Below, piece by piece: positions 13,358 through 63,780 of a stretch of DNA of 64,000 nt. The notes under the pieces were generated by a model, which was not told where the DNA came from, searched no databases, and saw only the letters and a list, made by a program, of their open reading frames with translations. Position numbers and translations under genes: made by a program. The number at the start of each line of letters is the position of its first letter. The first letter of the stretch is position 1. Origin of the DNA: Enterocloster lavalensis (lineage in GTDB: Bacteria; Bacillota; Clostridia; Lachnospirales; Lachnospiraceae); NCBI RefSeq assembly GCF_902364025.1, contig NZ_CABJCG010000005.1, positions 208,932 through 272,931 on the forward strand, written 5' to 3'.

Positions 13358-13403
13358 TGCATAATGGTGCGACTATTTTGTAAGAGAGGGACGGAGGAAC
13401 AGG

Positions 13404-47258: not shown

Positions 47259-47296
47259 CGCTATATAATGGATTGATTGAAGAGGAGGATACGAAA

Positions 47297-48289
47297 ATGG
47301 GAATGAATGTAAGAGGAAGAAGCTTTCTGAAACTGCTGGACTACACCCCCCAGGAGATCCGCTATCTGCTGGATCTCTCGAAGGAGTTTAAGGCGATGAA
47401 GCGCAGTGGGACGCCCCACTGCTACCTGCCCGGCAAAAATATTGTGCTGATTTTTGAGAAGACGTCCACCAGGACCCGCTGCGCCTTTGAGGTGGCGGCC
47501 CGGGATCTGGGCATGGGAGTCACCTATCTGGATCCGGGCAGCAGCCAGATGGGCAAAAAGGAGAGCATCCCGGACACCGCCCGGGTGCTGGGAAGAATGT
47601 ACGACGGCATCGAGTACCGCGGTTTTGACCAGAAGCTGGTGGAGCAGCTGGCCGAATACTCCGGCGTGCCGGTCTATAACGGCCTGACCGACCAGTTCCA
47701 TCCCACCCAGATGCTGGCGGACCTTCTGACCATCGAGGAGAAGTTCGGATGTCTGAAGGGCCTGAATTTCACCTACATGGGCGACGCCCGCAATAATATG
47801 GGCAATTCCCTGATGGTGGCCTGCGCGAAAATGGGCCTGAACTTTACGGCCTGCGCGCCGAAGGAGCTGTTCCCGGCTGAGGATCTGGTGCGGGAGGCGG
47901 AGCGCATCGCCGCGGAGAACGGCAGCACCGTGCGCCTGACCGAGGACGTGACCGAGGGAGCCACAGGGGCGGACATCATCTACACGGATATCTGGGTGTC
48001 CATGGGCGAGCCGGACGAGGTCTGGGATACCCGCATCCGCCTGCTGCGTCCCTACCAGGTGAACCGCAGCCTGATGGAGAAGGCCGGCCCCGGCGCTCTG
48101 TTTATGCACTGCCTGCCCTCCTTCCACGACACCAAAACCGTGATTGGGGCCCAGATTGCGGAGAAATTCGGCCTGACGGAGATGGAAGTGACCGACGAGG
48201 TGTTCGAATCCAGCCAGTCGGTGGTGTTCGACGAGGCGGAGAACCGGATGCATACCATCAAAGCGGTGTTGTACGCGACTTTGTGTTGA
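47297..48289 (+). CDS. arcB: Ornithine carbamoyltransferase (catabolic)
   Basis: 330 residues from the ATG at 47297 (AGAGGAGGA upstream). Carbamoyl-phosphate binding motif STRTR (residues 57-61), [33 protein letters not shown], and the HCLPSFHD active-site Cys segment. In this operon it phosphorolyses citrulline to ornithine and carbamoyl phosphate. Position between arcA and arcC supports the catabolic role. Confidence 0.96.
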
Positions 48290-48316
48290 GAACCGGTCCC
48301 GTTTTCAGGAGGCATT

Positions 48317-49501: not shown

Positions 49502-49551
49502 AATTTGAAATTGAATTATACCCTGCAGAGAAAGGGAGGAAGGATATTATT

Positions 49552-50652
49552 ATGGCTTTTAAATTACCTGAATACCATCATCCGGATTTTACCCAGCCCA
49601 TGTTTGTGAACGCCCCGGACGTAAAGTTTGAGGAGGCGGAAATGGACGGTGTGGCGCCGGAATATTACCACAGCACCTCCATGTACCCGGAGTATTTCAA
49701 GATCAATGGGAAATGGGTGCTGGCGGAGGAGAGCCGCATGGATTCCAGCGTGGTGATCTGTGACGACGGCCACCTGGCGGTGGTGGAGAACCGAAACCTG
49801 AAAAAGGGAGATAAAGTGATCCTGGGCCGCAGCGAGAAGGCCGAGGAGGGCATTTACATGCACTGCAACGGCTTTACGGCGGAGGGCGAGGATCTGGACG
49901 ACCAGTTCGTGTTCCGCCAGGGCAGGAGCCGCGAGACTTCCTACGCCCGGGACTACGACAACCTGTTCGAGCTGCTCCGGCACGAGCGGGAGCACGGGAA
50001 TATCGTCTGGGTCATGGGTCCGGCGTTTTCCTTCGACTACGACGCCAGAGCCGCCATGCAGGCCCTGGTGGAGAACGGTTACGCCCACGGCCTGATGGCC
50101 GGAAACGCCCTGGCCACCCACGACCTGGAGGGCGCGCTGTTGCACACGGCCCTTGGGCAGGACATTTACACCCAGAAATCCCAGCCCAACGGCCACTACA
50201 ACCACCTGGACGTGATTAACAAGGTGCGCAGAAGCGGCTCTATCCCCCAGTTTATCGAGGACTACAAGATCGACAACGGGATCATTTACAGCTGCGTGAA
50301 GAACGGCGTGCCCATGGTGCTGACCGGGTCCATCCGGGACGACGGCCCCATGCCCGAGGTGATCGGGGACGCCTACAGGGGTCAGACCGAGATGCGTGGC
50401 CTGGTGCGCGGCGCCACCACGGTGATCTGCCTGGCTACCATGCTGCACACCATCGCCACCGGAAATATGACGCCCTCCTTCCGGGTGATGCCGGACGGCC
50501 AGATCCGCCCCGTGTACCTGTACACCGTGGATGCGGACGAGTTTGTGGTGAATAAACTTCTGGACCGCGGAAGCCTGTCCGCCACCACCATTGTGACCAA
50601 TGTCCAGGACTTTATCGCCATCGTGGCCAAGGGGTTGGGCGTGATGAAATAA
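49552..50652 (+). CDS. LOR/SDH-type ornithine cyclodeaminase
   Basis: 366 residues from the ATG at 49552 (GGGAGGAAGG upstream). Long stretches match the LOR/SDH conserved domain (TIGR00300-like) found in archaeal ornithine cyclodeaminase and in the C-terminal half of cyanobacterial ArgZ/AgrE: VWVMGPAFSFDYDARAAMQA, GLMAGNALATHDLEGALLHT, NGVPMVLTGSIRDDGPMPEV and GSLSATTIVTNVQDFI. The predicted reaction turns ornithine into proline and ammonia using bound NAD. It lies 50 bases after arcC, so ornithine made by ArcB would be consumed here and not exported; no arcD exchanger gene is present. Family assignment is from memory of motifs. Confidence 0.75.
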   Translation: MAFKLPEYHHPDFTQPMFVNAPDVKFEEAEMDGVAPEYYHSTSMYPEYFKINGKWVLAEESRMDSSVVICDDGHLAVVENRNLKKGDKVILGRSEKAEEGIYMHCNGFTAEGEDLDDQFVFRQGRSRETSYARDYDNLFELLRHEREHGNIVWVMGPAFSFDYDARAAMQALVENGYAHGLMAGNALATHDLEGALLHTALGQDIYTQKSQPNGHYNHLDVINKVRRSGSIPQFIEDYKIDNGIIYSCVKNGVPMVLTGSIRDDGPMPEVIGDAYRGQTEMRGLVRGATTVICLATMLHTIATGNMTPSFRVMPDGQIRPVYLYTVDADEFVVNKLLDRGSLSATTIVTNVQDFIAIVAKGLGVMK

Positions 50653-50808: not shown

Positions 50809-52059
50809 TTACAGCGTGTTTTCCTGAATCTCAATGCTCTGCCGGAACGCCCCCGGGGTCATGGTGCGGAACCGCAGGAAGTTGCGGGTCAGGGTCTTGG
50901 CGCTGTTGTAGCCCACGTCGATGGCGATCTGGGTGATGCTCTTGTCGGTGCGCTTGAGCAGCTCAGAAGCCCGGTTGACGCGCACGAAGTTTAAAAAGTC
51001 GGAGAAATTCTTCTCAACCTGATACAGGAGGATGGTGTTTAACTCCTTCAGCGAAATATGGAACTGCTCCGCCGTGCTCTGGGGCGTCAGATGCTCCGCA
51101 TAGTTCCGGTAAATATACGTTACGATCTCATAGGCATCTCTTGTCATCCTGATATCGCATATTTCATAGACATTCTGATACGTTTTCCGAAAATCATTGG
51201 CTTTCATTCCGACCCGGGCCGCAAATACCTTGCAGATGTGGGAGCTGTCCACAAATCCCAGGATTTCCGCCAGCTCCTCCATGGTTAGGTTGGTATACAG
51301 CAGGAAATTGATGGTTTTTCCCACCCGCATCTCATTTAACAAATCAAAAAAGGACAACCCGGTGGTCTGGGTGATATAGGCGCTGATGGAGGACTCGCTC
51401 ATGAAGAAGAGCTTGGACAGATTGGCCAGAGTCAGCTTCTCGCTGAGGTGGTTGTACATGTAGTGGAGGATATCGCTTTTCTGAATCCCCGTCCGGGCAG
51501 GCGGGGACGCGGTCTTGCTGCGCTCACCGGCCCTGAGATAGAGGACAATCAGCTCCACCAGCTTGTTTTTCACGTAGAGGGAGTGGAGACGGCCGCTCTC
51601 CTCCGCGGGTTTCACGGACTCCACCCCCGTCTCGGCCCGAAGCTGCTCGAAAACGGTGCGGATTTCCGTATATTCCTCTTTGCCGCACTGCACCACCGGG
51701 CAGCCCGTCATCTCCTCGATCAGGCTTAAGGGCTGGCTGTCGGTGTTGTAAATGGATTTGATGATGGCGTTGATATTGTCGAAATAGTAGGCAAGGAGAT
51801 AATACTGCAGGGGGGAATCCACCTGGATCACATCGGAAATCTGCCAGGGCAGGATGGACACGATGGTGCCCGGCTTCAGCTCGTACTCCCGGTCCTGGAG
51901 CTTTAAAATGCCCTGGCCCTCGTTGATCAGCCAGAAACGGGACATCTGATGGATCAGGGGCGTGGTGGGGGTATCGATCACCTCGGTGTCGATGCTGCAA
52001 ATCCTGCGGTAATCCAGATTGGAGCAGTAACCATTTTGAATCGGCACTATTTTTCCCAT
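50809..52059 (-). CDS. AraC-type regulator with two HTH_18 domains
   Basis: 416 residues from the ATG at 52059, preceded by AAAGGAGG; the frame extends to 52185 over the promoter. N-terminal cupin-like sensor (about 15-160, with FWLINEGQGILKLQDREYEL). Two AraC-type DNA-binding regions follow: the first (about 200-290) has KLTLANLSKLFFMSESSISA and MEELAEILGFVDSSHICKVF; the second (about 320-410) has HLTPQSTAEQFHISLKELNT and ITQIAIDVGYNSAKTLTRNF then PGAFR. Single AraC domains are normal, so the duplication is unusual. It lies between the arc and liv operons and is divergent from liv. Confidence 0.9.
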   Translation of the reverse strand: MGKIVPIQNGYCSNLDYRRICSIDTEVIDTPTTPLIHQMSRFWLINEGQGILKLQDREYELKPGTIVSILPWQISDVIQVDSPLQYYLLAYYFDNINAIIKSIYNTDSQPLSLIEEMTGCPVVQCGKEEYTEIRTVFEQLRAETGVESVKPAEESGRLHSLYVKNKLVELIVLYLRAGERSKTASPPARTGIQKSDILHYMYNHLSEKLTLANLSKLFFMSESSISAYITQTTGLSFFDLLNEMRVGKTINFLLYTNLTMEELAEILGFVDSSHICKVFAARVGMKANDFRKTYQNVYEICDIRMTRDAYEIVTYIYRNYAEHLTPQSTAEQFHISLKELNTILLYQVEKNFSDFLNFVRVNRASELLKRTDKSITQIAIDVGYNSAKTLTRNFLRFRTMTPGAFRQSIEIQENTL

Positions 52060-52140
52060 GCTGCGGCCTCCTTTGTCGGACGTAATACCGGAAAGACCAA
52101 AATCCCGGCTGTTTTGCCATAGGAACGGTTCTCTAACGTC

Positions 52141-52169
52141 ATTATAGCGTGGCGGCAGGGATGGGGCAA
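52141..52169 (-). promoter_or_regulatory. Promoter of the AraC-type gene
   Basis: On the minus strand TTGCCC (52169-52164) and TATAAT (52146-52141), 17-base spacer, with CGC before the -10. The PucR-type gene has the same -35, -10 and spacing. Confidence 0.65.
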
Positions 52170-52275
52170 GAGAAAATAGGGACATTTCCGGGGGTGTTTT
52201 TCTGTATTTTAATGGGGGTTTGGCCGGATCAGCCGGATTTTACGCATAAATTTCCTTCAAAATGAAAAAAAATTC

Positions 52276-52365
52276 AAAAATAGGGTCAAATGAACGAAAG
52301 TACAAAAGGTCATTTTTAAATATGGATTTTTGTACGATTGCAAAAATGATAGATTCGTTTAAAAT
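52276..52365 (+). promoter_or_regulatory. liv operon promoter with upstream regulator sites
   Basis: TTGCAA (52338-52343) and TAAAAT (52360-52365), 16-base spacer. Immediately upstream is a dyad GTACAAAA (52300-52307) / TTTTGTAC (52328-52335), and before it TAGGGTCA (52281-52288) with TCATTTTT (52310-52317). The position next to the -35 suits an activator, probably the divergent AraC-type protein. Confidence 0.5.
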
Positions 52366-52386
52366 TTAAAATTAGTACAGATATAC

Positions 52387-52436
52387 AAAAAAATGGATTT
52401 GCGGAAGGGGGAAATGGGACAAAAGTCCATTTTTTT
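52387..52436 (+). promoter_or_regulatory. Attenuator-like hairpins in the liv leader
   Basis: AAAAAAATGGA (52387-52397) is an exact reverse complement of TCCATTTTTTT (52426-52436), giving a terminator-shaped hairpin with a T-tract. A smaller hairpin GGAC-AAAA-GTCC (52417-52428) uses some of the same bases and would exclude it. This arrangement can act as a switch ahead of the first gene; what would control it is unknown. Confidence 0.4.
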
Positions 52437-52514
52437 GCAGGATAACCTGTCGGTCAAAAGGGGATGCACCCCTCATAAAATTTAATTTTTTTACCAGGAG
52501 GAAGGAGAAAGATT

Positions 52515-53693
52515 ATGCGTAGAAAGTTTAAGAGGATTGCAGCGGCGGCGATGGCCACGGCGATGGCGCTCTCAGTGGCGGCCTGTGGAGGCAGCAAAAA
52601 GGACAGTGACAAGATCATACTGGGTTACATGGGCCCCCTGACCGGGGAATCCGCTCTCTGGGGGGAGGTGGAATCCAACACCCTGAAAATGCTGGTGGAG
52701 GAGACCAACGCAAACGGCGGCATCATCGGCAAACAGATTGAGCTGAAAATCTACGACAACCGGGGCGACGCGGTGGAGACCACCAACGCGGCCCGCAAGG
52801 CGCTCCAGAACGACGGCGTGGTGGCCTTCATCGGCCCGGACTCCTCCTCGGGTGCCATCGCCCTGGCGGAGGTGTGCGAGGAATACAAGGTCCCCCATAT
52901 CACCACCACGGGCACCAACTACAAGGTGACCCAGCGGGAGGAGGACGGTTCTGTCCGGCCCTACGCATTCCGCATCTGCCTGTCCGACCCGCAGCTGGGC
53001 GATATCATGGGCGGTTACGCTAAGGACAAGCTGGGCTACCAGAAGGTTGCCATTCTCTACGAGATTAGCAGCGAGTATTCCCTGGGAATCACCCAGAACT
53101 TTACCAATTCCTTTGAGGCCAAGGGCGGCCAGGTGACGATCACCGAGGCCTATAAGACCGGCGACGTGGATTTCCGGGCCCAGCTCTCCAAGATCAAGGA
53201 AAACGGGGATTTCGACGCGCTGATGATCCCGGCCAACTACAAGGAGGTGGGCCTGATCGCCAAGCAGGCGCGGTCGCTGGGCATCGAAGTGCCGTTTTTG
53301 GGCGTGGACGCCTGGATGATGCAGGACCTGTTTGAGATCGCAAAGGACGAGGTACAGGGAGCGGTGTTCCCCTGCGCCATGGACGTGAACGACGAGAGCC
53401 TTCAGGAATTCAAGAACGCCTTCCAGGAGAAGTGGAATATGGACCCGGACAAGGGCGGCACGGATGCGTACCTGGCTTACGACTGCTTCGAGCTGGTCAA
53501 GTACGCCATCGAGACGGCGGGCGAGGCGGATCCCCAGAAGATCCGGGACGCTATGGAAAATGCTAAAGACGTGCAGTGTCTGACCAGCGTGATTTCCATG
53601 GACCCGCAGACCCACAACCCCGTCCGCACCGCTTCCATTTTCCAGATTCAGGGAACGGATTTTGTAAAACTCGACGAGTACCGCATGGAATAA
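52515..53693 (+). CDS. LivJ-type ABC solute-binding lipoprotein
   Basis: 392 residues. Lipoprotein signal with the lipobox SVAAC (Cys near residue 24), then a type I periplasmic-binding fold: IILGYMGPLTGESALWGEVE, FIGPDSSSGAIALAEVCEEY, GYQKVAILYEISSEYSLGIT, and DAYLAYDCFELVKYAIETA. The family binds branched-chain amino acids but also amides, urea, hydroxybenzoates and other small molecules. RBS AGGAGGAAGGAG is strong. It heads the Liv-SDR-NodB operon, so the ligand is likely the compound that the downstream enzymes degrade. Confidence 0.92.
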   Translation: MRRKFKRIAAAAMATAMALSVAACGGSKKDSDKIILGYMGPLTGESALWGEVESNTLKMLVEETNANGGIIGKQIELKIYDNRGDAVETTNAARKALQNDGVVAFIGPDSSSGAIALAEVCEEYKVPHITTTGTNYKVTQREEDGSVRPYAFRICLSDPQLGDIMGGYAKDKLGYQKVAILYEISSEYSLGITQNFTNSFEAKGGQVTITEAYKTGDVDFRAQLSKIKENGDFDALMIPANYKEVGLIAKQARSLGIEVPFLGVDAWMMQDLFEIAKDEVQGAVFPCAMDVNDESLQEFKNAFQEKWNMDPDKGGTDAYLAYDCFELVKYAIETAGEADPQKIRDAMENAKDVQCLTSVISMDPQTHNPVRTASIFQIQGTDFVKLDEYRME

Positions 53694-53695
53694 CA

Positions 53696-53798
53696 GTAAC
53701 AGTTCAGACGGCGGGAAAATTGACGCGGAAAGCCGCGTCAAGCTCGCTTATAAGCGGATTTCCGTGTCAATTTTCACATCGGATGTCTGAACTGTTAC
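53696..53798. repeat. Structured intergenic element, copy B
   Basis: A perfect 14-bp outer stem, GTAACAGTTCAGAC (53696-53709) with GTCTGAACTGTTAC (53785-53798), encloses an inner stem of about 21 bp with two mismatches (53716-53736 and 53754-53774) and a loop GTCAAGCTCGCTTATAA. ACATCGGATG follows the inner stem. It is the shorter homologue, in the opposite orientation, of the element at 33774-33925. It lies inside the liv operon between the binding protein and the first permease, where it could also tune relative expression. Confidence 0.8.
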
Positions 53799-53823
53799 GA
53801 ATAATAGGAGGGAGGGAACAGGA

Positions 53824-54699
53824 TTGTTCTTTCAACAGTTGATAAACGGGCTGTCCATCGGAAGCATCTACGCGCTGATGGCGGTGGGGTATTCCCTGAT
53901 CTACAGCCTTTTGAACTTTACGAACTTCGCCCACAGCATCACCGTCACCATCGGAGCCTTCTGCGCATTTTTCTTCCTGTCGCAGCTGGTGCAGAACCTG
54001 TTCCTGGGGATTCTCATCGCGGTGCTGGCGGCCGGGGGGCTGGCCATGCTGATCGAGCTTTTGGGATACCGGCCGCTGTTAAAGAAAAAGGCCCGCCGGA
54101 TCTACCTGCTGATCACCGGCCTTGGAATTTCCACCATGTGCGAGAACCTGATCATCATCAGCTTCAGCAGCCGGTTCAGGGTGTACCCGGTGAACTTTTC
54201 CAACGAGTCTATTAACCTCTTTGGGGCCAGCGTTGGACAGGTGGACCTGATCATTTTCGTGGTGAGCATCACGGCCCTGGTGCTGGTGGAGCTGTTTATC
54301 CGCAAGTCCCGGGTGGGCCTGGCCATACGGGGGGCGTCCTACGATCTGGACGCCACCTCCCTGATGGGCGTGAACGTGCAGAAGCTGATTTTGCTGGTAT
54401 TTTTGATCGCAGGCTCCCTGGCCGGCCTGGCGGGGGCTCTTCTGGGCGCGAAATACACGGCCTTCCCGACGCTGGGCACGGCCATGACCAACAAGGCGTT
54501 TATCAGCTCGGTGTTCGGCGGCCTGGGAAGCATCCCCGGCGCGGTGCTGGGGGCGATCACGCTGGGGATCGGCGAGACCATGATTTCCAGCTATATTTCC
54601 TCCTCCATGCGGGACATTTTCGCCTACGCGCTGCTGGTGATCGTGCTGTTCGTCCGCCCGTCGGGGCTGATGGGAAAAGCCACGGAGGACAAGGCATGA
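53824..54699 (+). CDS. LivH-type ABC permease
   Basis: 291 residues, starting at a TTG (53824) placed after AGGAGGGAGGG. About eight hydrophobic segments; LINGLSIGSIYALMAVGYSL is the LivH N-terminal motif, and the cytoplasmic loop reads AIRGASYDLDATSLMGVNVQ. First of two permeases of the Liv transporter. Confidence 0.92.
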   Translation: MFFQQLINGLSIGSIYALMAVGYSLIYSLLNFTNFAHSITVTIGAFCAFFFLSQLVQNLFLGILIAVLAAGGLAMLIELLGYRPLLKKKARRIYLLITGLGISTMCENLIIISFSSRFRVYPVNFSNESINLFGASVGQVDLIIFVVSITALVLVELFIRKSRVGLAIRGASYDLDATSLMGVNVQKLILLVFLIAGSLAGLAGALLGAKYTAFPTLGTAMTNKAFISSVFGGLGSIPGAVLGAITLGIGETMISSYISSSMRDIFAYALLVIVLFVRPSGLMGKATEDKA

Positions 54700-54712
54700 G
54701 GGAGGTGCGAAG

Positions 54713-55588
54713 ATGAATTATTGGATGGGTGTTGCGACACTGACCGGCATTTATATGATTGCGATTCTGGGCGTTTCCATTCTCACCGGGTTCACGGGCC
54801 TGTTTTCCATGGGCCACGCGGGTTTTATGGCAATCGGGGCCTACACCTCCGCCCTGATCACCAAGACCTTCCACGTGCCCATTCTGGTGGGCGTGTTCTG
54901 CGGGATGCTGACCGCCCTGGTGATCGGGCTGATCATCGGCTATCCCACGCTGAAGCTGAAGGGGGATTATTTTGTAATCGCCACCCTGGGAATCGGGGAG
55001 GTGACCAAGCTGATCATCGAGAACATGCCGAATCTCACCGGTGGCGCCAGGGGCCTGACGGACGTGCCAAAGGGGGCTACCTTCCCGGTGGTGCTCTGTT
55101 TCCTGGTGGTGATCGTGTGGGGCCTGCGCAATTTCCTGCGCAGCAAGCACGGGCGCAACTGCATAGCGGTGCGGGAGGAGGAGCTGGCCACGGCGTCCAT
55201 CGGGGCAAACGTGGCCAATTACAAGATGCTGGCAATGGGGATCAGCTGCGCGCTCTGCGGTATTTCCGGCGCGCTTTTAGCCCACTATATGCATTATCTG
55301 AATCCCACCATGTTCAATATGGTGAAGTCGGACGAGCTGGTAATGACGGTGATTTTGGGCGGCTGCGGCAGCCTGACCGGTACCATCGTGGCCTCCATGA
55401 TCCTGGTGCCCTTGCCCGAGATTCTGCGCTTCGGCTCCGTCCAGGAGTGGCGCATGGTATTCTACGGCCTGCTGGTGGTATTGGTGATCATCTTTAAGCC
55501 TTCGGGCCTGATGGGGACCAAGGAGTTCAGCATACAGGGGATGCGGGATCTGGGAGACAAAGCCAAGAAGAAATGGAAGGAGCGGTAG
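54713..55588 (+). CDS. LivM-type ABC permease
   Basis: 291 residues with about eight to nine hydrophobic segments; YMIAILGVSILTGFTGLFSM and GHAGFMAIGAYTSALIT are typical of LivM (S-x-G-H-A-G-F-x-A-I-G-A-Y). The loop AVREEELATASIGANVANYK matches the family's EAA-like region. It starts 13 bases after LivH. Confidence 0.93.
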   Translation: MNYWMGVATLTGIYMIAILGVSILTGFTGLFSMGHAGFMAIGAYTSALITKTFHVPILVGVFCGMLTALVIGLIIGYPTLKLKGDYFVIATLGIGEVTKLIIENMPNLTGGARGLTDVPKGATFPVVLCFLVVIVWGLRNFLRSKHGRNCIAVREEELATASIGANVANYKMLAMGISCALCGISGALLAHYMHYLNPTMFNMVKSDELVMTVILGGCGSLTGTIVASMILVPLPEILRFGSVQEWRMVFYGLLVVLVIIFKPSGLMGTKEFSIQGMRDLGDKAKKKWKER

Positions 55589-55591
55589 CCC

Positions 55592-56368
55592 ATGGCGCAG
55601 CAGGAATACATATTGCAGCTACAGAATGTCGTGAAGCGCTTTGGCGGCATCACGGCTTCCAACGATATAACCATCAATGTGCCCCGGGGCAGCATCTACG
55701 GCATCATCGGGCCCAACGGGGCGGGCAAGACCACGCTGTTCAACATGATTACCGGGGTGTACGATACCACGGAGGGCAAGGTGCTCTTTGAGGGACAGCA
55801 GGTCAACGGGCTGCCCACCCACGTGATCGCGGCCAGGGGAATCGCCCGGACCTTTCAGAATATCCGCCTGTTTGGGGACCTGTCGGTCTACGACAATCTG
55901 CTGACCGCCTGCCAGAAGAACATCACCTACGGCCTTCTGGACGGAATCCTGCGCACGGAGAAGTGCCGGAGCCAGGAGCGGGAGAGCCGGGAATTCTGCG
56001 ACCGTCTGCTGGAGGAGGTGGGGCTGTCGGACCAGAGGCAGCAGCGGGCCAACAACCTGCCCTACGGCATGCAGCGGCGGCTGGAGATCGCCAGGGCCCT
56101 GGCAACCCGGCCCAAGCTGATTCTGCTGGACGAGCCGGCGGCCGGGATGAATGAGGAGGAGAGCGACAAGCTGTCGGAATTCATCCGGGAGATACGGGAG
56201 AAAAAGGACGTGACCGTGGTGATCATTGACCACCACATGGACGTGATCATGGCGATCTGCGACCAGATCAGCGTGCTCAACTTCGGGACGCTGCTGGCGG
56301 AGGGAAAGCCCGATGAGATTCAGAACAATCCGGAAGTGATTTCCGCGTACTTGGGGGTGGATGAGTAA
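55592..56368 (+). CDS. LivG-type ABC ATPase
   Basis: 258 residues. Walker A GPNGAGKTTLFNMITGVY near residues 38-55, a divergent signature LPYGMQRRLEIARALATRP in place of L-S-G-G-Q, Walker B LILLDEPAAGMNEEE and the H-loop IDHHMDVIM. The P-A-A-G-(M/L)-N after Walker B is a LivG trademark. Its stop overlaps the LivF start by one base. Confidence 0.95.
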   Translation: MAQQEYILQLQNVVKRFGGITASNDITINVPRGSIYGIIGPNGAGKTTLFNMITGVYDTTEGKVLFEGQQVNGLPTHVIAARGIARTFQNIRLFGDLSVYDNLLTACQKNITYGLLDGILRTEKCRSQERESREFCDRLLEEVGLSDQRQQRANNLPYGMQRRLEIARALATRPKLILLDEPAAGMNEEESDKLSEFIREIREKKDVTVVIIDHHMDVIMAICDQISVLNFGTLLAEGKPDEIQNNPEVISAYLGVDE

Positions 56369-57072
56369 TGCTTAGAGTGGAGAATCTCAGCTTTTCATAT
56401 GGTAAAATCCAGGCGATCCGCAACGTCAGCTTCGAGCTGGACAAGGGCGAGATCATGGCGATCGTGGGAGCCAACGGCGCGGGAAAATCCTCCCTCATGA
56501 AGTGCATCGCCGGGCTGTTAAAGCCACAGTGGGGGGAAGTCTACCTGAATGACCGGAAAATGGAGCCGGCCGCCTACAAGGTAGTGGAGCAGGGCGTGTG
56601 CCTGGTGCCCGAGGGGCGGTGGATTTTCCCCAACCTGACGGTGGAGGAGAATCTGATGCTGGGCGGATACACCAGCAAGAACCGGGCCGCAGGTATTGAG
56701 CGGGCTTACGGGATGTTCCCGCGGCTGGAGGAACGAAGGAAACAGCGGGCGGGTACCATGTCCGGCGGCGAGCAGCAGATGCTGGCCATCGCCAGGGGAC
56801 TGATGGCAAATCCCAAGGTGCTGCTTCTGGACGAGCCGTCCCTGGGGCTTGCTCCGCTGATTGTCAATGATATCATGTCCATTATCCGGCAGATCAACGG
56901 GGAGGGGATCTCCGTGCTGCTGGTGGAGCAGAACGCCCGCAAGGCCCTGTCCATCGCCCACCACGCCTGCGTGCTGGAGCAGGGACGGATCGTCAAGACG
57001 GGAACCGGGGCGGAGCTGGCCGCCGATGAGAGCATCGTGGCGGCGTATCTGGGAAAAACGAAAAAGCGGTAG
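56368..57072 (+). CDS. LivF-type ABC ATPase
   Basis: 234 residues. Walker A GANGAGKSSLMKCIAGLL, signature MSGGEQQMLAIARGLM, Walker B VLLLDEPSLGLAPLIV, and VEQNARKALSIAHHACVLE at the H-loop (Gln in place of the His, usual for LivF). Completes the ABC transporter. Confidence 0.95.
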   Translation: MLRVENLSFSYGKIQAIRNVSFELDKGEIMAIVGANGAGKSSLMKCIAGLLKPQWGEVYLNDRKMEPAAYKVVEQGVCLVPEGRWIFPNLTVEENLMLGGYTSKNRAAGIERAYGMFPRLEERRKQRAGTMSGGEQQMLAIARGLMANPKVLLLDEPSLGLAPLIVNDIMSIIRQINGEGISVLLVEQNARKALSIAHHACVLEQGRIVKTGTGAELAADESIVAAYLGKTKKR

Positions 57073-57086
57073 AGGAGGAATCTGGC

Positions 57087-57863
57087 GTGGAGGAGCGTGT
57101 ACAGAAGGCAATGTTTGATTATTTCCGTCTGGAGGGACAGGCGGCTATCGTGACCGGGTCGGGCAACGGCATCGGCCGCGCCACGGCGATTATGCTGGCG
57201 GACCTGGGCGCGCGGGTGATGGTTTGCGATATCGAGGGAGACAGCGCAAAAAAGGTGGCGGAGGAGATCGGCGGACGGGGCGGTACGGCCCTTTACAACC
57301 GCTGCGATGTGACCAATCTGGAGGAGATCCGGGACACCATCGGGAAGACGGCGGAGGCCTTTGGTGGTGTGGATATTCTGGTCAACAACGCGGCGGGATT
57401 CGGCGGGGGCAAGACCTTCGACAGGATGACCTATGAGGAATGGGACCGGCTGATCCGCATCAACCTGACCGGAGCTTATATGTTTACCAACGAGGTGCTG
57501 CCTTATATGGTGAAAAAGCAGCACGGGAAGATTTGCATGGTCAGCTCGGGCGCGGCCCTTGGATATGATTTCTCCGATCCCCACTATGCGGCCTCCAAGG
57601 CCGGGATGATCGGACTGGCAAAGGAGTTGTCCCAGGAGCTGGCTAAGCACCGGATCAATGTGAACGCGCTGGGAACCGGGCTGACGGACACCCGCATGGC
57701 CCATCTGCCGGGGCGTTCCTGGGAGGATGAGACAAAGGGCCTGCCCTGGCACCGTGTGGGGACGCCCGAGGACCAGGCGGCGGCTATCGTGTTTCTGGTG
57801 TCCGAGGCGGCGGAGTATATTACCGGACAGGTGCTCTGTCCCAACGGCGGGGCATGGATGTAG
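57087..57863 (+). CDS. Short-chain dehydrogenase/reductase 1
   Basis: 258 residues from a GTG at 57087 after AGAGGAGGA; an internal ATG at codon 9 is possible. The Rossmann motif is TGSGNGIGRA (from residue 23), NNAAG lies in the fourth strand, and the catalytic Ser (MVSSGAAL) and Tyr167-x-x-x-Lys171 (YAASK) are intact. The ending VLCPNGGAWM fits classical SDRs. NAD(P)-dependent oxidation or reduction of an alcohol/ketone is expected. It starts 14 bases after LivF and has a paralogue next to it. Confidence 0.92.
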   Translation: MEERVQKAMFDYFRLEGQAAIVTGSGNGIGRATAIMLADLGARVMVCDIEGDSAKKVAEEIGGRGGTALYNRCDVTNLEEIRDTIGKTAEAFGGVDILVNNAAGFGGGKTFDRMTYEEWDRLIRINLTGAYMFTNEVLPYMVKKQHGKICMVSSGAALGYDFSDPHYAASKAGMIGLAKELSQELAKHRINVNALGTGLTDTRMAHLPGRSWEDETKGLPWHRVGTPEDQAAAIVFLVSEAAEYITGQVLCPNGGAWM

Positions 57864-57982
57864 GTTTGGGGAGCCGGGCGGCTGTCCGGCCGACTGCGTT
57901 TCCGGCGGGATGCGGGTATGGGGCGCGGGGAGTAAAGGCGTCTGCCGTGCCGGAGGCGGTTTGATTTTAGGAAAGGAAACAG

Positions 57983-58759
57983 GTGCGTTTTATGGAATAT
58001 GATTATCTGAAAATAGCCGGACAGTCCGCAATCGTCACAGGCGGCGGCCGGGGAATCGGGAGAGCGACGGCGCTGGCACTGGGGCGCTTTGGCGTGAAGG
58101 TAGTTGTCTGCGACGTCCGTGACGACTGGGGCGAGGACGCGGTCCGGGAGATCCGGGAGGGAGGCGGAACCGCCATGTATTGCCACTGCGACGTGGCGGA
58201 CCCGGGGCAGGTGAAGGAGCTTGTGAAGGCCGCGGTGGAGGCCTATGGAACCGTGGATATCCTGGTAAACAACGCGGGCATCGGCAGCGTTTCCCTGCCT
58301 TTTGAGGAGATCACGGACGAGGACTGGGACCGCATGCTGCGGGTGGACCTCACCGCGCCTTTTTATCTCTGCCGGGAGGTGATTCCCTACATGAAGGCGA
58401 AGCAGCACGGCAAGATCATCAACATCAGCTCCGGGTCCGGGATCATCGGCTGCGAGTTCTGTTCCCATTACGCCTCGGCCAAGGCCGGGCTGATCGGGTT
58501 CACCCAGTCCATCGCAAAGGAGCTGGGCAAGGACCACATCAACGCCAACGCCATCGCGGTGCCCACCACTCAGACGCCTATGCTGAAGGAGACGGATTTC
58601 GACGTGTTTGTGGAGGACGAGCTGCGGGATATCCCATGGGGGCGCATCGGCACGCCGGAGGACATCGCGGACATGGTGTTGTATTTGTCCTCAGACGCAT
58701 CGGAGTATGTCACCGGCCAGGTGCTGGCCCCAAATGGGGGGAGACGGACGCCGGTTTAA
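57983..58759 (+). CDS. Short-chain dehydrogenase/reductase 2
   Basis: 258 residues from the GTG at 57983; an ATG three codons on (57992) is as plausible and gives an N-terminus aligned with its paralogue (MEYDYLKIAGQSAIVTGGG). TGGGRGIGRA, NNAGI and the YASAK motif (Tyr163, Lys167) are intact. Two related SDRs in one operon suggest two successive oxidations or alternative stereochemistry. The 119 bases before it hold no gene. Confidence 0.9.
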   Translation: MRFMEYDYLKIAGQSAIVTGGGRGIGRATALALGRFGVKVVVCDVRDDWGEDAVREIREGGGTAMYCHCDVADPGQVKELVKAAVEAYGTVDILVNNAGIGSVSLPFEEITDEDWDRMLRVDLTAPFYLCREVIPYMKAKQHGKIINISSGSGIIGCEFCSHYASAKAGLIGFTQSIAKELGKDHINANAIAVPTTQTPMLKETDFDVFVEDELRDIPWGRIGTPEDIADMVLYLSSDASEYVTGQVLAPNGGRRTPV

Positions 58760-58830
58760 GAGGAGCGAAAGGGCGGTTTGCGCGCAGGCGGGCCGGGCTG
58801 TTCCGGTTGGGACGCCTGTCTGTGATGGCA

Positions 58831-58959
58831 GGAGAGTCGGCCTGGGCGGCGGAAAGCTGCTCGGGCAACGAAAAGCTGCTCGGACGACTGAGAACCGGCC
58901 TGGGCGGCGGAAAGCAGCTCGGGTGACTGAGAACCGGCCTGGGCGCCGGAAAGCGGACC
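58831..58959 (+). repeat. Tandem repeat between SDR and NodB genes (three units)
   Basis: CGGCCTGGGCGGCGGAAAGC recurs three times (about 58839, 58896 and 58935, the last with one change), with GACTGAGAAC before the last two copies and CTCGG after the first two. The unit is about 39 bases where complete. It fills most of the 234-base gap and has no coding role I can support. Confidence 0.7.
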
Positions 58960-58993
58960 CGAACAGAATATTACGGATAGAAGGAGCAAATAT

Positions 58994-59848
58994 ATGAGAT
59001 GGCCTAACGGAGCGAAGAGTGCGTTTGCTTTAGGGTTTGACCTGGACGGCGACACCATTTGGCGCAACAAGACAAAAACGCTGCCTAAGGGCAGCGGCTA
59101 CATCAAGGGGCCTTCCATCGGCCAATACGGCACGAAAAAGGGCGCGCTGCGGGTGCTGGAAATTCTGGATGAATTTTCTTTAAAATCCACATGGTTTATT
59201 CCGGCCAACATTGTAATGGAGCATCCGGGTCTGGTGGAGACCATACTGGACCGGGGGCATGAGATCGGCCACCATGGACTGGACCACACCGGGGAGTACG
59301 GAGCGACCTTCCAGGAGCAGAGAGAGCGCATAGAGCGCTGTCAGGAGATATTTGAGAAATATACCGGGCGGTGGGCCCTGGGCTTTAGGCCCACAGGGGC
59401 TTTGCTGCCGGAGACGGAGCGGTGGATTTACTCGGAGGGCGGGTTTGTGTACTCCAGCGCCGGGATCAGCGGCGAGGCCTGCGGCTGGTACGAGGTGGAG
59501 GGGGAACTCACCGGTGCGGTAAATATCCCCTGCCGGGACGAGCAGATGGACGACTACGTGCAGACGGTGTTCCACTCCTACCCGGCGGTGCTGGTGGGGA
59601 TGCCCCGCATCGCGCCCTACGAGAACGCGTATTCCAACTGGGTCCGCGAGGTGGAGGGTATGGTGCGTATGGGAAATTCCGGCTCCACGGCCTTCCACCC
59701 GCAGATCGCGGGTACGCCGGGGAGAGCGGTGATATTTAGCAGTTTCTGCGAATATCTGGCGTCCAACCGGGACGTGTGGTGCGCCACCTGCCTGGAGATA
59801 GCGGATTTTTATAAAGCGGCAATGGAGGGGAATGACGATGCTCATTGA
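58994..59848 (+). CDS. NodB-fold (polysaccharide deacetylase family) hydrolase 1
   Basis: 284 residues, no signal peptide, so cytoplasmic. The NodB metal site is visible: FDLDGD (Asp16, Asp18) and HHGLDH (His94, His98 as H-x-x-x-H). FRPTGALLPETE gives the conserved F-R-x-P-x-G-like segment. Cytoplasmic members of this family include allantoinase PuuE and cyclic-imide hydrolases as well as sugar deacetylases, so a cyclic amide or N-acyl substrate is plausible. The stop overlaps the next, related gene by 11 bases. Confidence 0.85.
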   Translation: MRWPNGAKSAFALGFDLDGDTIWRNKTKTLPKGSGYIKGPSIGQYGTKKGALRVLEILDEFSLKSTWFIPANIVMEHPGLVETILDRGHEIGHHGLDHTGEYGATFQEQRERIERCQEIFEKYTGRWALGFRPTGALLPETERWIYSEGGFVYSSAGISGEACGWYEVEGELTGAVNIPCRDEQMDDYVQTVFHSYPAVLVGMPRIAPYENAYSNWVREVEGMVRMGNSGSTAFHPQIAGTPGRAVIFSSFCEYLASNRDVWCATCLEIADFYKAAMEGNDDAH

Positions 59849-60659
59849 AAAGACGGCATGGCCGTCCAATAAAACATGCGCGGCTATGATCAGCGTGAAT
59901 CTGGACGCCGAGTTTTTCGGCAAGATTTATTATCCGGACGTCAACGTGGACGAGGGCGATATCCTGCGCCTGGGCCGCACCGGCATCCGTTTTGGGCTGC
60001 CGAAGCTTTTGGAGGTGCTGGACCGCTTTGGGGTGAAGGCAACCTTCTTTATACCGGGAGCCGTGGTGAAGCGTTACCCGGAGGCGGTGGCCTCCATCGT
60101 GGAGCGCGGGCATGAGATCGGCTGCCACGGAAACAACCATGAAATTCTGGCCCACATGACCGTAGAGGAGCAGCGGGCGGCGCTGACGGAGGCGAGGGAT
60201 CTTCTGACAAAGGCGGCGGGTAAGGCGCCTGCGGGATTTCGGATGCCGGAGGGAGAGATCAGCGAGGAGACGCTGGCGCTGGTGAAAACGCTGGGATTTT
60301 CCTACTCCAGTTCCTTGTCCGACGACGACGTGCCCTATGTGCGGGAGTCCTGCGGGCTTCTGGAGCTGCCTATTCACTGGGAATTGTTCGACCTGCCTTA
60401 TTTTGCGTTCACATTTGATCCGCCCATCCCTCCGGGACAGTCCCGCAGCGCCCGCATGGACGACGTGCTGAAGAACTGGCTCTACGAGCTGGAGGGCGCC
60501 AGGCGGTTCGGGACGCTGTTCAACCTTCAGCTGGACCCTCAGGCCATCGGCGAACAGGGGCGCATTTTCATGTTGGAGGAGCTTCTGACGGAGATACAGA
60601 AGGCGGAGGACGTTTGGGTAGCGACGGGCGAAGAGATCGCCGCGTTTTTTGGAGCATAA
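59838..60659 (+). CDS. NodB-fold (polysaccharide deacetylase family) hydrolase 2
   Basis: 273 residues from the ATG at 59838, seven bases after GGAGGGG; an ATG at 59832 is too close to that site. SVNLDAEFFG carries Asp23 and Glu25 in place of the two Asp, and CHGNNH supplies His97 and His101. GFRMPEGEISEETL is the F-R-x-P-x-G segment. The V-N-x-D-x-E start is common among PuuE-like and related cytoplasmic amidohydrolases. The overlap with the preceding paralogue suggests equal expression and possibly a heteromer. Confidence 0.85.
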   Translation: MLIEKTAWPSNKTCAAMISVNLDAEFFGKIYYPDVNVDEGDILRLGRTGIRFGLPKLLEVLDRFGVKATFFIPGAVVKRYPEAVASIVERGHEIGCHGNNHEILAHMTVEEQRAALTEARDLLTKAAGKAPAGFRMPEGEISEETLALVKTLGFSYSSSLSDDDVPYVRESCGLLELPIHWELFDLPYFAFTFDPPIPPGQSRSARMDDVLKNWLYELEGARRFGTLFNLQLDPQAIGEQGRIFMLEELLTEIQKAEDVWVATGEEIAAFFGA

Positions 60660-60671
60660 AGGAGGTATATT

Positions 60672-61985
60672 TTGGCAGAAGCAGCACTGAATGCAATGGC
60701 CCAGCAGCTGGTGGACCTGACCCTGTGCAAGACGCGCTACGATGCGTGGGATTTGCAGTGGTACACCGAGGGGCCGTTCTGGAGAAGAACAAACATGCGT
60801 TATTCCCGGGAGTACAAGATTATCCCGGACTATGAGATCGGGGACATGAAGCACGGCAAGACTCTGGAGAATATTCTGGACGAGTCGGAGAGCCTTACAA
60901 AGAGCCTGGAGCAGTACAAGGTGAACGCGGGGGAGAAGGAGATGCAGAGGGTCAATTACCTTCTGGATCATGTGCAGAACTTAAACGTCCGCGCCCGGAT
61001 GCTCCTGGGGGAACGGTTTTCCTTTGATCAGATGACGGACGGGCTTTACTGCCTGGTGGCGCCTGCCACGGATTGTCAAAAATTTGACGATATTTTGGAG
61101 GAGCTGAACCAGGCGCTGCCGGGGACCGGGTCCGTGCAGGAGAAGATTGTGGGGTTCCGCAAGAAGCTGGCGATTCCGCCGGAGCACCTGCTGGCCGTGA
61201 TCAAGGATTCCACCCAGGTGTTTCACGACATTGCCGTGAAGCGCATGGACGTGACCGGCAACAGCATGCCCAGGGTGCGGGTGCGGGAGCTGCCCAATCA
61301 GGACATGGTATTTCTGTCCATTCTCTTTGGGTACGACTACAACCACATCGAGTACGAGCGGAATTTCAACCTGCTGTACCCCTGGACCGTGGACAAGGTG
61401 GTGGAGTATGTGGGGCATGAGATGGAGCCGGGGCATCTGACTTATTTTGAGAAGCGGCTTCAGACCATGATCGACACCTGCTGGCCGGAAATGTCCATCG
61501 TGTCCCAGTTCTCCACCTCCAACGCCTTCGGCGAGGGCTCGGCCCGCCACGTGATCTCCATGAGTTTCGATAACTCGGTGGAGAAATTGACGGAGTTTGA
61601 GCGGGAAGTCATTTTCAGGAACGCGGGAATCGATCCGGGGCTGGCGGAGCTTATGCCGCTGTGGCATCGTTTCTGCGAGCTCTCCGGCTACGGAAAGCTG
61701 GAGGCCAGCCGGAAGATCTGGGATCAGGTGTGGACGCAGGAGGAGGCCGGGCGCTTCCTGGAGCGCTACGGGTTCGCCGAGCCGGGAACCGGGGCGGAAA
61801 TCGTTGGACACATGGCGGAGGACGACGGGCATTTTGTGGCCCACGACTACTCGCGGGACGTGGTGAGGGAGTATTTCAATTCCGTGACCGAGGATGTGAC
61901 GCAGCAGTGGAAGCTGTACGAAAAGTTGTGTTGCGCCCATGTTTCCATGCGGGGGATTAAGGATCGGACGTTTCAGGTGGAATGA
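60672..61985 (+). CDS. HExxPGH metallopeptidase-like protein (DUF885-related)
   Basis: 437 residues from a TTG at 60672 after AAAGGAGG. The probable zinc site is HEMEPGH (residues 249-255), the H-E-x-x-P-G-H pattern of DUF885 proteins, within VVEYVGHEMEPGHLTYFEKR. The N-terminal third is helical with no signal peptide. Downstream, NAFGEGSARHV and EREVIFRNAGIDPGLAELMP also fit a helical metallopeptidase. DUF885 members are about 550-600 residues, so this is a shorter relative. It is the last gene of the operon, and peptide or amide hydrolysis of a pathway intermediate is inferred. Confidence 0.7.
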   Translation: MAEAALNAMAQQLVDLTLCKTRYDAWDLQWYTEGPFWRRTNMRYSREYKIIPDYEIGDMKHGKTLENILDESESLTKSLEQYKVNAGEKEMQRVNYLLDHVQNLNVRARMLLGERFSFDQMTDGLYCLVAPATDCQKFDDILEELNQALPGTGSVQEKIVGFRKKLAIPPEHLLAVIKDSTQVFHDIAVKRMDVTGNSMPRVRVRELPNQDMVFLSILFGYDYNHIEYERNFNLLYPWTVDKVVEYVGHEMEPGHLTYFEKRLQTMIDTCWPEMSIVSQFSTSNAFGEGSARHVISMSFDNSVEKLTEFEREVIFRNAGIDPGLAELMPLWHRFCELSGYGKLEASRKIWDQVWTQEEAGRFLERYGFAEPGTGAEIVGHMAEDDGHFVAHDYSRDVVREYFNSVTEDVTQQWKLYEKLCCAHVSMRGIKDRTFQVE

Positions 61986-61998
61986 ATAGGAGATAGGA

Positions 61999-62042
61999 AG
62001 CAGCAGCGCCGGTTTGAATTAAATCCTGGCGCTGCTGTTTTG
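61999..62042. terminator. Terminator at the end of the liv operon
   Basis: AGCAGCAGCGCC (from about 61999) pairs with GGCGCTGCTG, followed by TTTT; it lies between convergent genes. Confidence 0.8.
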
Positions 62043-62082
62043 TGTTCGGAAATGGGAGGGGGACAGTGATTGCGGGCGCCCC

Positions 62083-63780
62083 CTACGGGTCCAGGTCCCG
62101 GTCCAGGATTCCGGCCTGGATCAGGGTCTGGATTTTCAGGCCCAGGGACAGGTTGAACACGGTCTCGCTGTCGGACAAATCTTTTCCCAGTATCTGGGAA
62201 ATTTTGTTCAGCCGGGCGTACAGCGTATTTTTGTGGATGTACAGCAGGTTGCAGATGGCGGAGGGCGAGGCGCAGCAGGTGATGTAGGCGGTCAGCGTGG
62301 GGAGCAGGTCCCCGCTGTGCCGGCTGTCATAGTCCGTGATCGGCTGAATGTATTCCTGGTATACCTGCAGCAGGGGCGCGAAATCCACCTGGTTGGAGCG
62401 GTCGAAGAAGAAGCGGAGGATGCCCAGCTCGTCGTAATAGCAGGACGCCTTGTTCAGGGAGTGCTGGGAGATGGCCAGGGCTTTGAGCGCCTGCAGATAG
62501 CCCTGCCTCACCCGCTCGGTGGGCACGATTCCGCTGATCCCCACGCCGTTGTACTGTTCCTGCAAAAACTCGCGGAATAGGCTGATGACGCGCTCAAAAT
62601 CCGGCTTGCCGCGGGAGACCAGTTGTTTGGGCAACAGGGTCACGATGTAGTCCTTCCGCTCAAACAGGAAAAAGTTGATGGTGCCCATGGCATTTACCAG
62701 GTGGTCGTACAGGGCGTTGAACTGCTGGCTGGTGAGCAGCTCGTGGAAAAAAGTGTCCGAGGTGCTTTGGGGAGTCCGGCCTGCGATGAGCACGTAGTAT
62801 TCGTCGTAAATTACCTTCTGCACCAGCCCGTATTTCTGCATGAGCTTGCGGAAATCCGTCTGCTCCGACTCCACCAGCTCGTCCAGCAGGAAGTCGTAAT
62901 ACCGGTTCACCGTATGGGCGATCTCATCGGACTTGATAATCTCAAATTTCATGATCGCCAGAATCTGCTGAATTTTGATGCTGCGCTCCGGGGACAGCGC
63001 GTCCGTGCGCTCGTCCAGGGAGAGGAGAAGGTAGCCATAACAGTTGCCCTCGTCCACGATAGGGAAAATGAAGATCCGGCAGCCCTGTTTGCGGCAGTAA
63101 TGGTTCCGGTACAGATAACCGTTGATCCGATTGCCGTTGATGCCCTCCGCCAGGCAGGTCTGGCTTGCCGCCGGAGGATTGGGGATGGATTCCAGGGCGG
63201 ATTCCCAGTTGAAGGAATCCTCGTTGCAGAACGGGTTCAATACCAGGTAGCCGGAGGTGTCGTGGGTATTTTGCAGGTGAAAATCCGACGTAACGAAGGC
63301 CACGGGGCATTCCAGCAGCTCCGCGGCGATGCGGATGATACTCTCCCCTTTTCCCTTGTGGTGGAGCAGCTCCTTGGAGAGTCGTTCCATGGTCTCTAAG
63401 GAGGCCTCGGCCAGCCGCTGCATCCCGCTATAGGCCAGCTGGCAGCACTGGGAAACGGTTCGGGATATGTCGGAATCCCTGGGGATCAGAAACGTGGGAA
63501 GGAGGCGCTCCGCGTCCGAAGGAAATGTGATATCGTCTCCGTAGCGCACGGCGGCGCAGGAGCGGTGGGTAAGGACTTCTAGCATCTGGCCGTTTAAGTG
63601 CCGCCCGGTTCCCCTGGGAAAGAACAGCAGAGTCTGCTCTTCGACGGAATCGGGGAAGCTGGGATTTTCCGGCTCGAAGATAACGATTTGATGAATTTCC
63701 GCGGTCTGCATGTGTTCCGGCGGTTGGGCGGCGGGCAGCAGAAGCCCGCTGCTGACGAGGTTATTTAAATTCAGATCCAT
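62083..63780 (-). CDS. PucR-type transcriptional regulator
   Basis: 565 residues. A long N-terminal sensor region, GAF-like around residues 150-280 (PVAFVTSDFHLQNTHDTSGY), a middle GGDEF-like/CdaR region (about 330-430), and a C-terminal HTH_30 domain: LTAYITCCASPSAICNLLYI then HKNTLYARLNKISQILG, the PucR hallmark. PucR-type proteins control purine, amino-acid or other nitrogen-compound catabolism. It is convergent with the liv-SDR-NodB operon and probably regulates it together with the tandem AraC protein. RBS AAGGAGG lies 13 bases upstream, slightly far. Confidence 0.9.
   Translation of the reverse strand: MDLNLNNLVSSGLLLPAAQPPEHMQTAEIHQIVIFEPENPSFPDSVEEQTLLFFPRGTGRHLNGQMLEVLTHRSCAAVRYGDDITFPSDAERLLPTFLIPRDSDISRTVSQCCQLAYSGMQRLAEASLETMERLSKELLHHKGKGESIIRIAAELLECPVAFVTSDFHLQNTHDTSGYLVLNPFCNEDSFNWESALESIPNPPAASQTCLAEGINGNRINGYLYRNHYCRKQGCRIFIFPIVDEGNCYGYLLLSLDERTDALSPERSIKIQQILAIMKFEIIKSDEIAHTVNRYYDFLLDELVESEQTDFRKLMQKYGLVQKVIYDEYYVLIAGRTPQSTSDTFFHELLTSQQFNALYDHLVNAMGTINFFLFERKDYIVTLLPKQLVSRGKPDFERVISLFREFLQEQYNGVGISGIVPTERVRQGYLQALKALAISQHSLNKASCYYDELGILRFFFDRSNQVDFAPLLQVYQEYIQPITDYDSRHSGDLLPTLTAYITCCASPSAICNLLYIHKNTLYARLNKISQILGKDLSDSETVFNLSLGLKIQTLIQAGILDRDLDP

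Follow-up and report, generated by a model that had tools for sequence, protein, structure and literature searches.

Putative catabolic operon of Enterocloster lavalensis with a complete and a degenerate NodB-fold protein and an orphan family of predicted zinc hydrolases

Which compound is taken up and broken down by a gene cluster whose parts have known folds but whose combination looks new? The question is raised by a stretch of 64,000 nucleotides (nt) from Enterocloster lavalensis (assembly GCF_902364025.1, contig NZ_CABJCG010000005.1, positions 208,932 to 272,931), referred to here as the window. Ten same-strand genes spanning 52515-61985 lie between an AraC-type and a PucR-type regulator gene and encode a Liv-type ATP-binding cassette (ABC) importer, two short-chain dehydrogenases (SDRs), two NodB-fold proteins (NodB-A and NodB-B, or A and B) and an orphan metallohydrolase designated M. 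The M family and the repeated pairing of an active with a degenerate NodB protein also look new, and no description of this gene set was found in the open-access literature, an absence that is weak evidence. With moderate confidence, the cluster is interpreted as a regulated operon that serves the catabolism of an imported small molecule, similar to an amino acid, with C-N bonds of the amide type and a secondary alcohol group.

Organization of the operon and recurrence of its gene set

Gene identities were obtained from Pfam and NCBIfam profile scans of the window proteins. They agree with the gene calls of an initial annotation of the same DNA, every open reading frame of which is present where it had been placed. 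That annotation counted nine same-strand genes; there are ten, arranged as follows.

50809-52185, minus strand: AraC-type regulator with two helix-turn-helix regions (PF12833 in two stretches), divergent from the operon
52515-53693, plus strand: Liv/HAAT-type solute-binding protein (SBP); PF13458, 165 bits; lipobox by eye
53694-53823, no strand: gap between SBP and LivH, containing a ~105-nt palindrome from a dispersed repeat family; fold z -10.8; not operon-specific
53824-54699, plus strand: LivH-type permease; PF02653, 131.8 bits
54713-55588, plus strand: LivM-type permease; PF02653, 137.5 bits
55592-56368, plus strand: LivG-type ATPase; PF00005, PF12399
56368-57072, plus strand: LivF-type ATPase; PF00005
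57087-57863, plus strand: SDR1, NAD-type short-chain dehydrogenase; PF13561/PF00106
57983-58759, plus strand: SDR2, second NAD-type short-chain dehydrogenase; PF13561, 212 bits
58994-59848, plus strand: NodB-A, NodB-fold hydrolase with a complete metal and catalytic set; PF01522, 58.4 bits
59832-60659, plus strand: NodB-B, probable degenerate NodB-fold partner, overlapping NodB-A by 17 nt; PF01522, 90.7 bits
60672-61985, plus strand: M, orphan HExxPGH...E metallohydrolase with a DUF885-like fold (motif and predicted model)
62083-63780, minus strand: PucR-type regulator, convergent; PF13556, 61.2 bits

The junction gaps along the ten genes are 130, 13, 3, -1, 14, 119, 234, -17 and 12 nt. Two long junctions, 57864-57982 and 58760-58993, had been recognized initially, and the 130-nt SBP-LivH gap is a third that had been omitted.

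The gene set is not a chance arrangement, because it recurs in other genomes. Close homologues of M, 51-97% identical, were found at nine other loci: L001-L005 and those of G013, G015, G169 and G784 (L and G being our handles for loci and genomes). L004 and L005 end inside M, L003-L005 belong to related digester genomes, and L002, like L018, is [Clostridium] asparagiforme DSM 15981 (G001), the nearest comparison genome, with which the window DNA is 94-96% identical. The initial annotation had staked its reading on a neighbourhood search in which the genes should not prove to be rarely together; NodB-A and NodB-B adjoin M at 7/9 loci and lie one gene off in L017, which brings the co-occurrence to 8/9. 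The Liv-type SBP and permease genes are present at 8/9 loci (downstream in L017; in L005 the contig ends within the SBP gene), an SDR1 homologue at 7/9 (cut in L005, absent from L014), and SDR2, seen only in the window, L001, L002, L012 and L013, at 4/9. Between genomes the recurring set varies in SDR2 and in where SDR1 lies, and G784 also has another gene order. At L013, LivF is present at 12908-13609 on the minus strand and the cluster is headed by a divergent AraC homologue 46% identical to that of the window, while a homologue 64% identical to the window's PucR-type protein stands at the same cluster end in L001. The dedicated, conserved catabolic operon proposed initially is upheld by this recurrence.

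Two of the clusters contain further genes. In G013, a TRZ/ATZ-type amidohydrolase gene sits between SDR1 and the SBP gene. In G784, genes for IclR, KDPG aldolase, a KDG-type PfkB kinase, an amino-acid-type ABC system, a 2-hydroxyacid dehydrogenase and an IlvD/EDD dehydratase are interspersed with SDR1, A, B, M and the Liv genes.

M is rare. It was found in 3/145 relatives of G001, in 3/398 genomes of a phylum sample and in 2/391 of a class sample, these samples overlapping one another; the phylum count includes G185, whose M is distant (24%) and has no such neighbour genes around it. Searches round G169 (2/149) and G784 (1/148) returned only genomes already known. NodB-B was detected at E 1e-40 in 3/291 class genomes, two of them with M. 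In a rough test of co-localisation, which used the 120 listed matches each for M, NodB-A and NodB-B, 24 of the 56 M clusters whose longest contig reached 8 kilobases (kb) or more matched the exact longest-contig size of a NodB-A or NodB-B cluster; shorter contigs, P0090 (a 259-residue piece) and one NodB-B row (10,095, matching no M row) were left out. This result points the same way as the locus survey.

Active-site states of the NodB pair

Both NodB copies score above the PF01522 cut-off of 23.1 bits, and neither has a signal peptide by eye. Homologues numbered 133 for NodB-A and 198 for NodB-B, of which 120 listed for each were aligned; the counts below refer to these listed sequences, and the residue roles are those that we take from the CE4 motifs. 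The full five-residue set (DDHHH) is present in 105/107 NodB-A homologues ungapped there (13/120 were set aside for gaps), and in a close alignment it was found in 9/9 sequences, window included. By position, the base Asp and the metal Asp are each kept in 114/114, the two metal His in 116/117 and 116/118, and the catalytic His in 110/114. The full set occurs in 0/114 NodB-B homologues ungapped there (6/120 set aside): the base Asp is Asn in 113/118 and the catalytic His is Asp in 114/117 and never His, with Asp/Glu in 119/119 and His in 107/119 and 115/119 at the metal positions.

This division extends to other NodB proteins. Unpaired proteins were complete in 11/11 cases (two being mutual orthologues), whereas paired ones usually are not. 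The pairs in G786 and on contig C1 of G169 display the clostridial pattern of degeneracy; in the Burkholderia tandem pairs (two records) the first copy has the full set, and it is the second that lacks a metal Asp and both metal His and keeps the catalytic His. The lesions thus appear to differ between the two lineages, a statement drawn from residues rather than from a tree, and from a table that leaves aside the pairs of G185, L050 and L051. Since one copy is complete and the other lesioned, NodB-A and NodB-B are probably heteromeric, as the initial annotation had supposed, and the difference between unpaired and paired proteins fits a pairing of one active with one degenerate subunit.

By fold comparison of a predicted model, NodB-B is nearer to the small-molecule subgroup (3rxz/3qbu/PuuE) than to other NodB proteins; fold and sequence matches together bear out for the two copies the subgroup named initially. 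The best PDB match of both is 3RXZ, an uncharacterised NodB-fold structure from Mycobacterium smegmatis (E 5.7e-25 for A, 7.3e-39 for B), for which we know of no partner or pathway. BA3943, a CE4-family pseudoenzyme judging by the titles of 7bkf and 6hpa, belongs to another NodB subgroup than A and B and, to our knowledge, is not a tandem partner. According to excerpted text of PMC10967932, 3RXZ and 3QBU are the sole members of their subclass with all five residues, in which 3RXZ resembles NodB-A and differs from NodB-B, which lacks two of them; PuuE, of the same fold, is described there as working without metal. The PuuE allantoinase (3CL6) differs in this from NodB-A, which keeps the metal ligands. 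HpPgdA (HP0310, 3QBU), as portrayed in an excerpt of PMC3084791, is likewise a NodB protein that binds metal and has a covered site for small molecules, and the genes of its relatives lie near importers and peptidases; it is, by the same excerpt, a homotetramer, for which no degenerate partner is mentioned.

Neighbours of related NodB genes

Related NodB genes were inspected in 12 plasmid stretches from near the top of lists of 625 and 335 records, which serve as examples and not as a survey. SDR genes are neighbours in Sagittula (with isoaspartyl peptidase, creatininase-family and peptide ABC genes), in Agrobacterium (with GGT and a peptide-type ABC), in Paracoccus (two SDRs, an amidase and an ABC importer) and in two haloarchaea (two SDRs, an ArgE/DapE deacylase, and Liv or hydantoinase genes). 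The Acuticoccus gene neighbours GGT and ABC genes, with Liv genes further on, and the Rhizobium gene neighbours argH-like, amino-acid ABC and agmatinase genes; in Thermomicrobium none of these amide, SDR or importer genes adjoins.

Two Burkholderia records share a cluster of LysR, an argH-like lyase, an amino-acid ABC, a tandem NodB pair and MmgE/PrpD (L048 6918-15151, L049 6960-15151), and the same tandem pair with ArgH, SBP and MmgE relatives was recognized by similarity in unannotated records of Paraburkholderia (L050) and Caballeronia (L051). This Burkholderiales cluster resembles the window operon in its tandem pair and amino-acid importer and, in L048 and L049, in combining one complete with one degenerate copy. 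It differs in having a lyase and MmgE/PrpD where the window operon has SDR and M, and in the lesion itself, as its B copy has lost metal ligands whereas that of the window has lost base and acid.

Further NodB genes were found in genomes already mentioned. The third NodB gene of C. asparagiforme (L034 6652-9937) adjoins a C45-type hydrolase gene (PF03417), followed by an AspT-type transporter, and that of G013 (L046 3801-10159) a C45-type hydrolase gene (PF03417), followed by M32 and M42 peptidase genes. NodB in G169 has M20, two amidohydrolase and acetamidase/formamidase genes as neighbours, and the second NodB pair of G015 (L047 711-4356) adjoins a RidA-family gene (PF01042). An amide-type substrate is suggested because related NodB genes often neighbour genes for amide hydrolases, for SDRs and for importers of the amino-acid, peptide or Liv kind, and these contexts lend support to the nitrogenous amide-type compound proposed initially. 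A scan of viral contigs with our query A1 gave 17 pattern matches, none of them a relative.

The orphan family M

M, of 437 residues, matched no Pfam or NCBIfam family, in a Pfam scan to a maximum E of 10 in which the HMMER filters drop most weak matches, and a PDB sequence search with it returned nothing credible. It contains HExxPGH and a downstream Glu, which we take to be the motif of the DUF885 family (PF05960). Among the listed homologues H249, E250 and H255 are conserved in 119/119 and E288 in 116/118, and the predicted model of M has the DUF885 fold with this near-invariant zinc motif. M would be a zinc amide hydrolase. Membership of DUF885 by sequence was rejected: there is no Pfam hit, the hhalign probability against a DUF885-annotated Deinococcus protein is 0.2, and the fold alone agrees. 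When M was compared with M32 carboxypeptidases and with the DUF885 proteins 3IUK and 3O0Y, the chains of the latter two were found to be 550 and 585 residues long, against 437 for M.

A plasmid search with M gave a match in 1/72,556 records, from Deinococcus (27.9% over 41% of M), and an hhalign probability of 96.3 backs this protein as distant kin. On the Deinococcus plasmid (L019 1561-15019) it lies amid peptide ABC, DUF885, SDR, RraA, KPR and peptidase genes.

Importer and dehydrogenases

The Liv/HAAT set is complete, with Peripla_BP_6, two BPD_transp_2 and two ABC_tran matches and a BCA C-terminus on LivG. Although the full SBP-H-M-G-F set of HAAT/Liv importers is present, the curated Liv and urea models, against which the SBP, LivH and LivM were scored, gave values below their cut-offs: LivH 175.4 against 379, LivM 172 against 366, UrtB 126.4 against 250.3 and SBP 129.9 against 477 bits. 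The acidic residue of GVDAW/TTEGA in the SBP is D or E in 8/8 aligned sequences, window included, and aligns with the D/E of 3td9, 4gnr, 3ipc and 4n0q, the residue with which amino-acid-binding relatives contact the amino group. The nearest solved SBPs are of the amino-acid type, which indicates a ligand class only.

Both dehydrogenases have the features of classical SDRs, namely a Pfam match, the SYK catalytic residues and an Asp after strand 2, which by the generally known roles of SDR residues favours NAD. YxxxK and CDIE were found in 7/7 aligned SDR1 sequences, window included, and the catalytic residues and the NAD-type Asp in 4/4 aligned SDR2 sequences.

Proposed pathway and alternative explanations

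The gene set, its conservation and the active-site states rest on observation and the folds of M and NodB-B on predicted models; the substrate class, the A/B complex, the reactions and their order are as we infer them. The Liv-type ABC system would import a small amino-acid-like compound, one C-N bond of which, an acyl amide or a ring amide, would be hydrolysed by a mixed oligomer of NodB-A and NodB-B. Within this oligomer A would catalyse the reaction with its metal, while the degenerate B would help the complex to assemble or the substrate to fit. A further bond, of peptide-like kind, would be cleaved by M as a predicted zinc hydrolase of DUF885 fold. Hydroxyl groups would be oxidised with NAD+ by the two SDRs, and AraC and PucR would control the operon in this lineage.

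Several observations weigh against this pathway. The sugar-acid genes in the G784 cluster are the strongest hint contrary to a purely amino-acid substrate; they also fall outside the scheme of the initial annotation, which was upheld in part. G169 is an exception, as its M (L014) has no NodB gene on the same contig and is accompanied by class-III aminotransferase, succinyl-CoA-ligase-like and PF07969 amidohydrolase genes, and its NodB pair is on another contig without clear pathway genes. Both copies of the second G015 pair are complete, so that degeneracy is no rule, and NodB-B may act by another mechanism, as metal-free PuuE does. No amide hydrolase or SDR adjoins the Burkholderia pair clusters, and in L048 (B. 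pyrrocinia) polysaccharide genes follow 1.5 kb downstream of the pair. The SDR family matches are too broad to name a substrate, and HpPgdA, in the excerpt of PMC3084791, showed no activity towards allantoin or towards N-acetylated dipeptides and polyamines.

It is more tentatively proposed that small-molecule NodB hydrolases became hetero-oligomers of active and dead subunits in Clostridia and separately in Burkholderiales, and that the clostridial form, with the new zinc amide hydrolase family M, might belong to an undescribed pathway by which gut and digester bacteria use a hydroxylated amino-acid conjugate. If true, this would suggest a function for metal-keeping small-molecule NodB proteins (3rxz, HpPgdA) and for the M family. 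It would also add an example of an enzyme pair, one member active and the other degenerate, that seems to have diverged in this way more than once, and would reveal how Enterocloster in the gut and clostridia in digesters obtain a nutrient. The one binding protein offers a direct way to seek the substrate of the operon.

A narrower form of the preferred explanation, and the one put forward initially, has the NodB pair hydrolyse an amino-acid-derived cyclic imide, hydantoin, lactam or imidazolone, after which M would cleave the open-chain amide. We consider it unlikely, although the two NodB proteins are kin to PuuE, which opens allantoin. Hydantoinase-family genes do occur in the stretches round the two haloarchaeal NodB genes and a TRZ/ATZ-type amidohydrolase within the G013 cluster, but the window operon contains neither hydantoinase nor carbamoylase. 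The G786 pair lies beside an amino-acid ABC and an Asp/Glu/hydantoin-racemase-family gene; that family (PF01177) is broad, however, and the NCBIfam scan named no racemase. The cut-off of the PuuE model is missed and, in the excerpted description, PuuE is not metal-dependent, whereas A keeps the metal site.

A sugar-linked substrate is improbable. Here NodB-A and NodB-B would remove an acyl group from an amino acid conjugated to an amino sugar or to a sugar acid (the GlcNAc-Asn stub of N-glycans or a glycated amino acid are our guesses), M would cleave the amide and the SDRs would oxidise sugar hydroxyls. The IlvD/EDD dehydratase, KDPG aldolase, KDG-type PfkB kinase and 2-hydroxyacid dehydrogenase genes round SDR1, A, B and M in G784 would fit, although they may belong to a neighbouring operon, and no such genes are present in the window operon or the examined stretches of L001, L003, L004 and L012. 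An IlvD/EDD gene is also found on a G169 contig with a NodB and amidohydrolases, the Paracoccus NodB has sugar kinase, uxuA and mannitol dehydrogenase genes at a distance of ~5-8 kb, and the Sagittula NodB adjoins an isoaspartyl peptidase; against this, Liv-type systems rarely take sugars.

Recycling of peptides or peptidoglycan fragments, with NodB deacetylating a muropeptide-like or D-amino-acid peptide and M acting as an ordinary peptidase, is quite improbable. HpPgdA-like genes next to D-Ala-D-Ala peptidases, reported in the excerpt of PMC3084791, and the M32 and M42 peptidases and C45 hydrolase near the G013 NodB would be in keeping with it, but the Pfam hits of the operon include no muropeptide or amino-sugar enzyme, A and B are without a signal peptide by eye, and NodB-B groups with small-site NodB proteins. 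Plain polysaccharide deacetylation is not favoured either, because by eye neither NodB copy has a signal peptide and both resemble the small-site subgroup, although polysaccharide genes do follow the B. pyrrocinia pair and, in Paracoccus, capsule and glycosyltransferase genes begin 6 kb upstream of the NodB gene.

Purine or ureide (allantoin) catabolism under PucR control, suggested by the regulator and by weak hits of the PuuE model (TIGR03212), is very unlikely and was rejected on the scores of that model, 71.5 (A) and 81.6 bits (B) against an equivalog cut-off of 424.6, and on missing genes, as the Pfam hits of 50.8-63.8 kb include no allantoate, ureidoglycolate or purine enzyme and a PucR homologue, present in L001 and L002, was not seen in L003, L012, L013, L014 or L017 (L004 and L005 end inside M).

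Intergenic repeats and upstream genes

Neither the palindrome gap nor the repeat in 58760-58993 is part of the operon's machinery. The palindrome of the SBP-LivH gap (53694-53802; -57.8 kcal/mol, z -10.8) belongs to a dispersed family with matches in 14/17 genus genomes and 59 match rows in G001, some of which are both strands of one palindrome; its half-site GTAACAGTTCAGAC was counted 16 times forward and 14 times in reverse, against 0 for the control. The intergenic repeat noticed initially, a GC-rich tandem repeat with a 39-nt unit at 58872-58954 between SDR2 and NodB-A, is real but lies outside the system, because the same gap is only 52 nt in C. asparagiforme DSM 15981 and 35 nt in L001. 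A second GC-rich tandem repeat (49285-49416), with a 15-nt unit, lies in frame in the 3' end of the carbamate-kinase-like gene, and neither tandem repeat aligns to C. asparagiforme DSM 15981. Just upstream of the operon, window positions 46032-50652 contain arginine deiminase- and ornithine carbamoyltransferase-like genes (by eye), a PF00696 amino-acid kinase of the carbamate kinase type and an ArgZ-like C-domain protein (PF21570).

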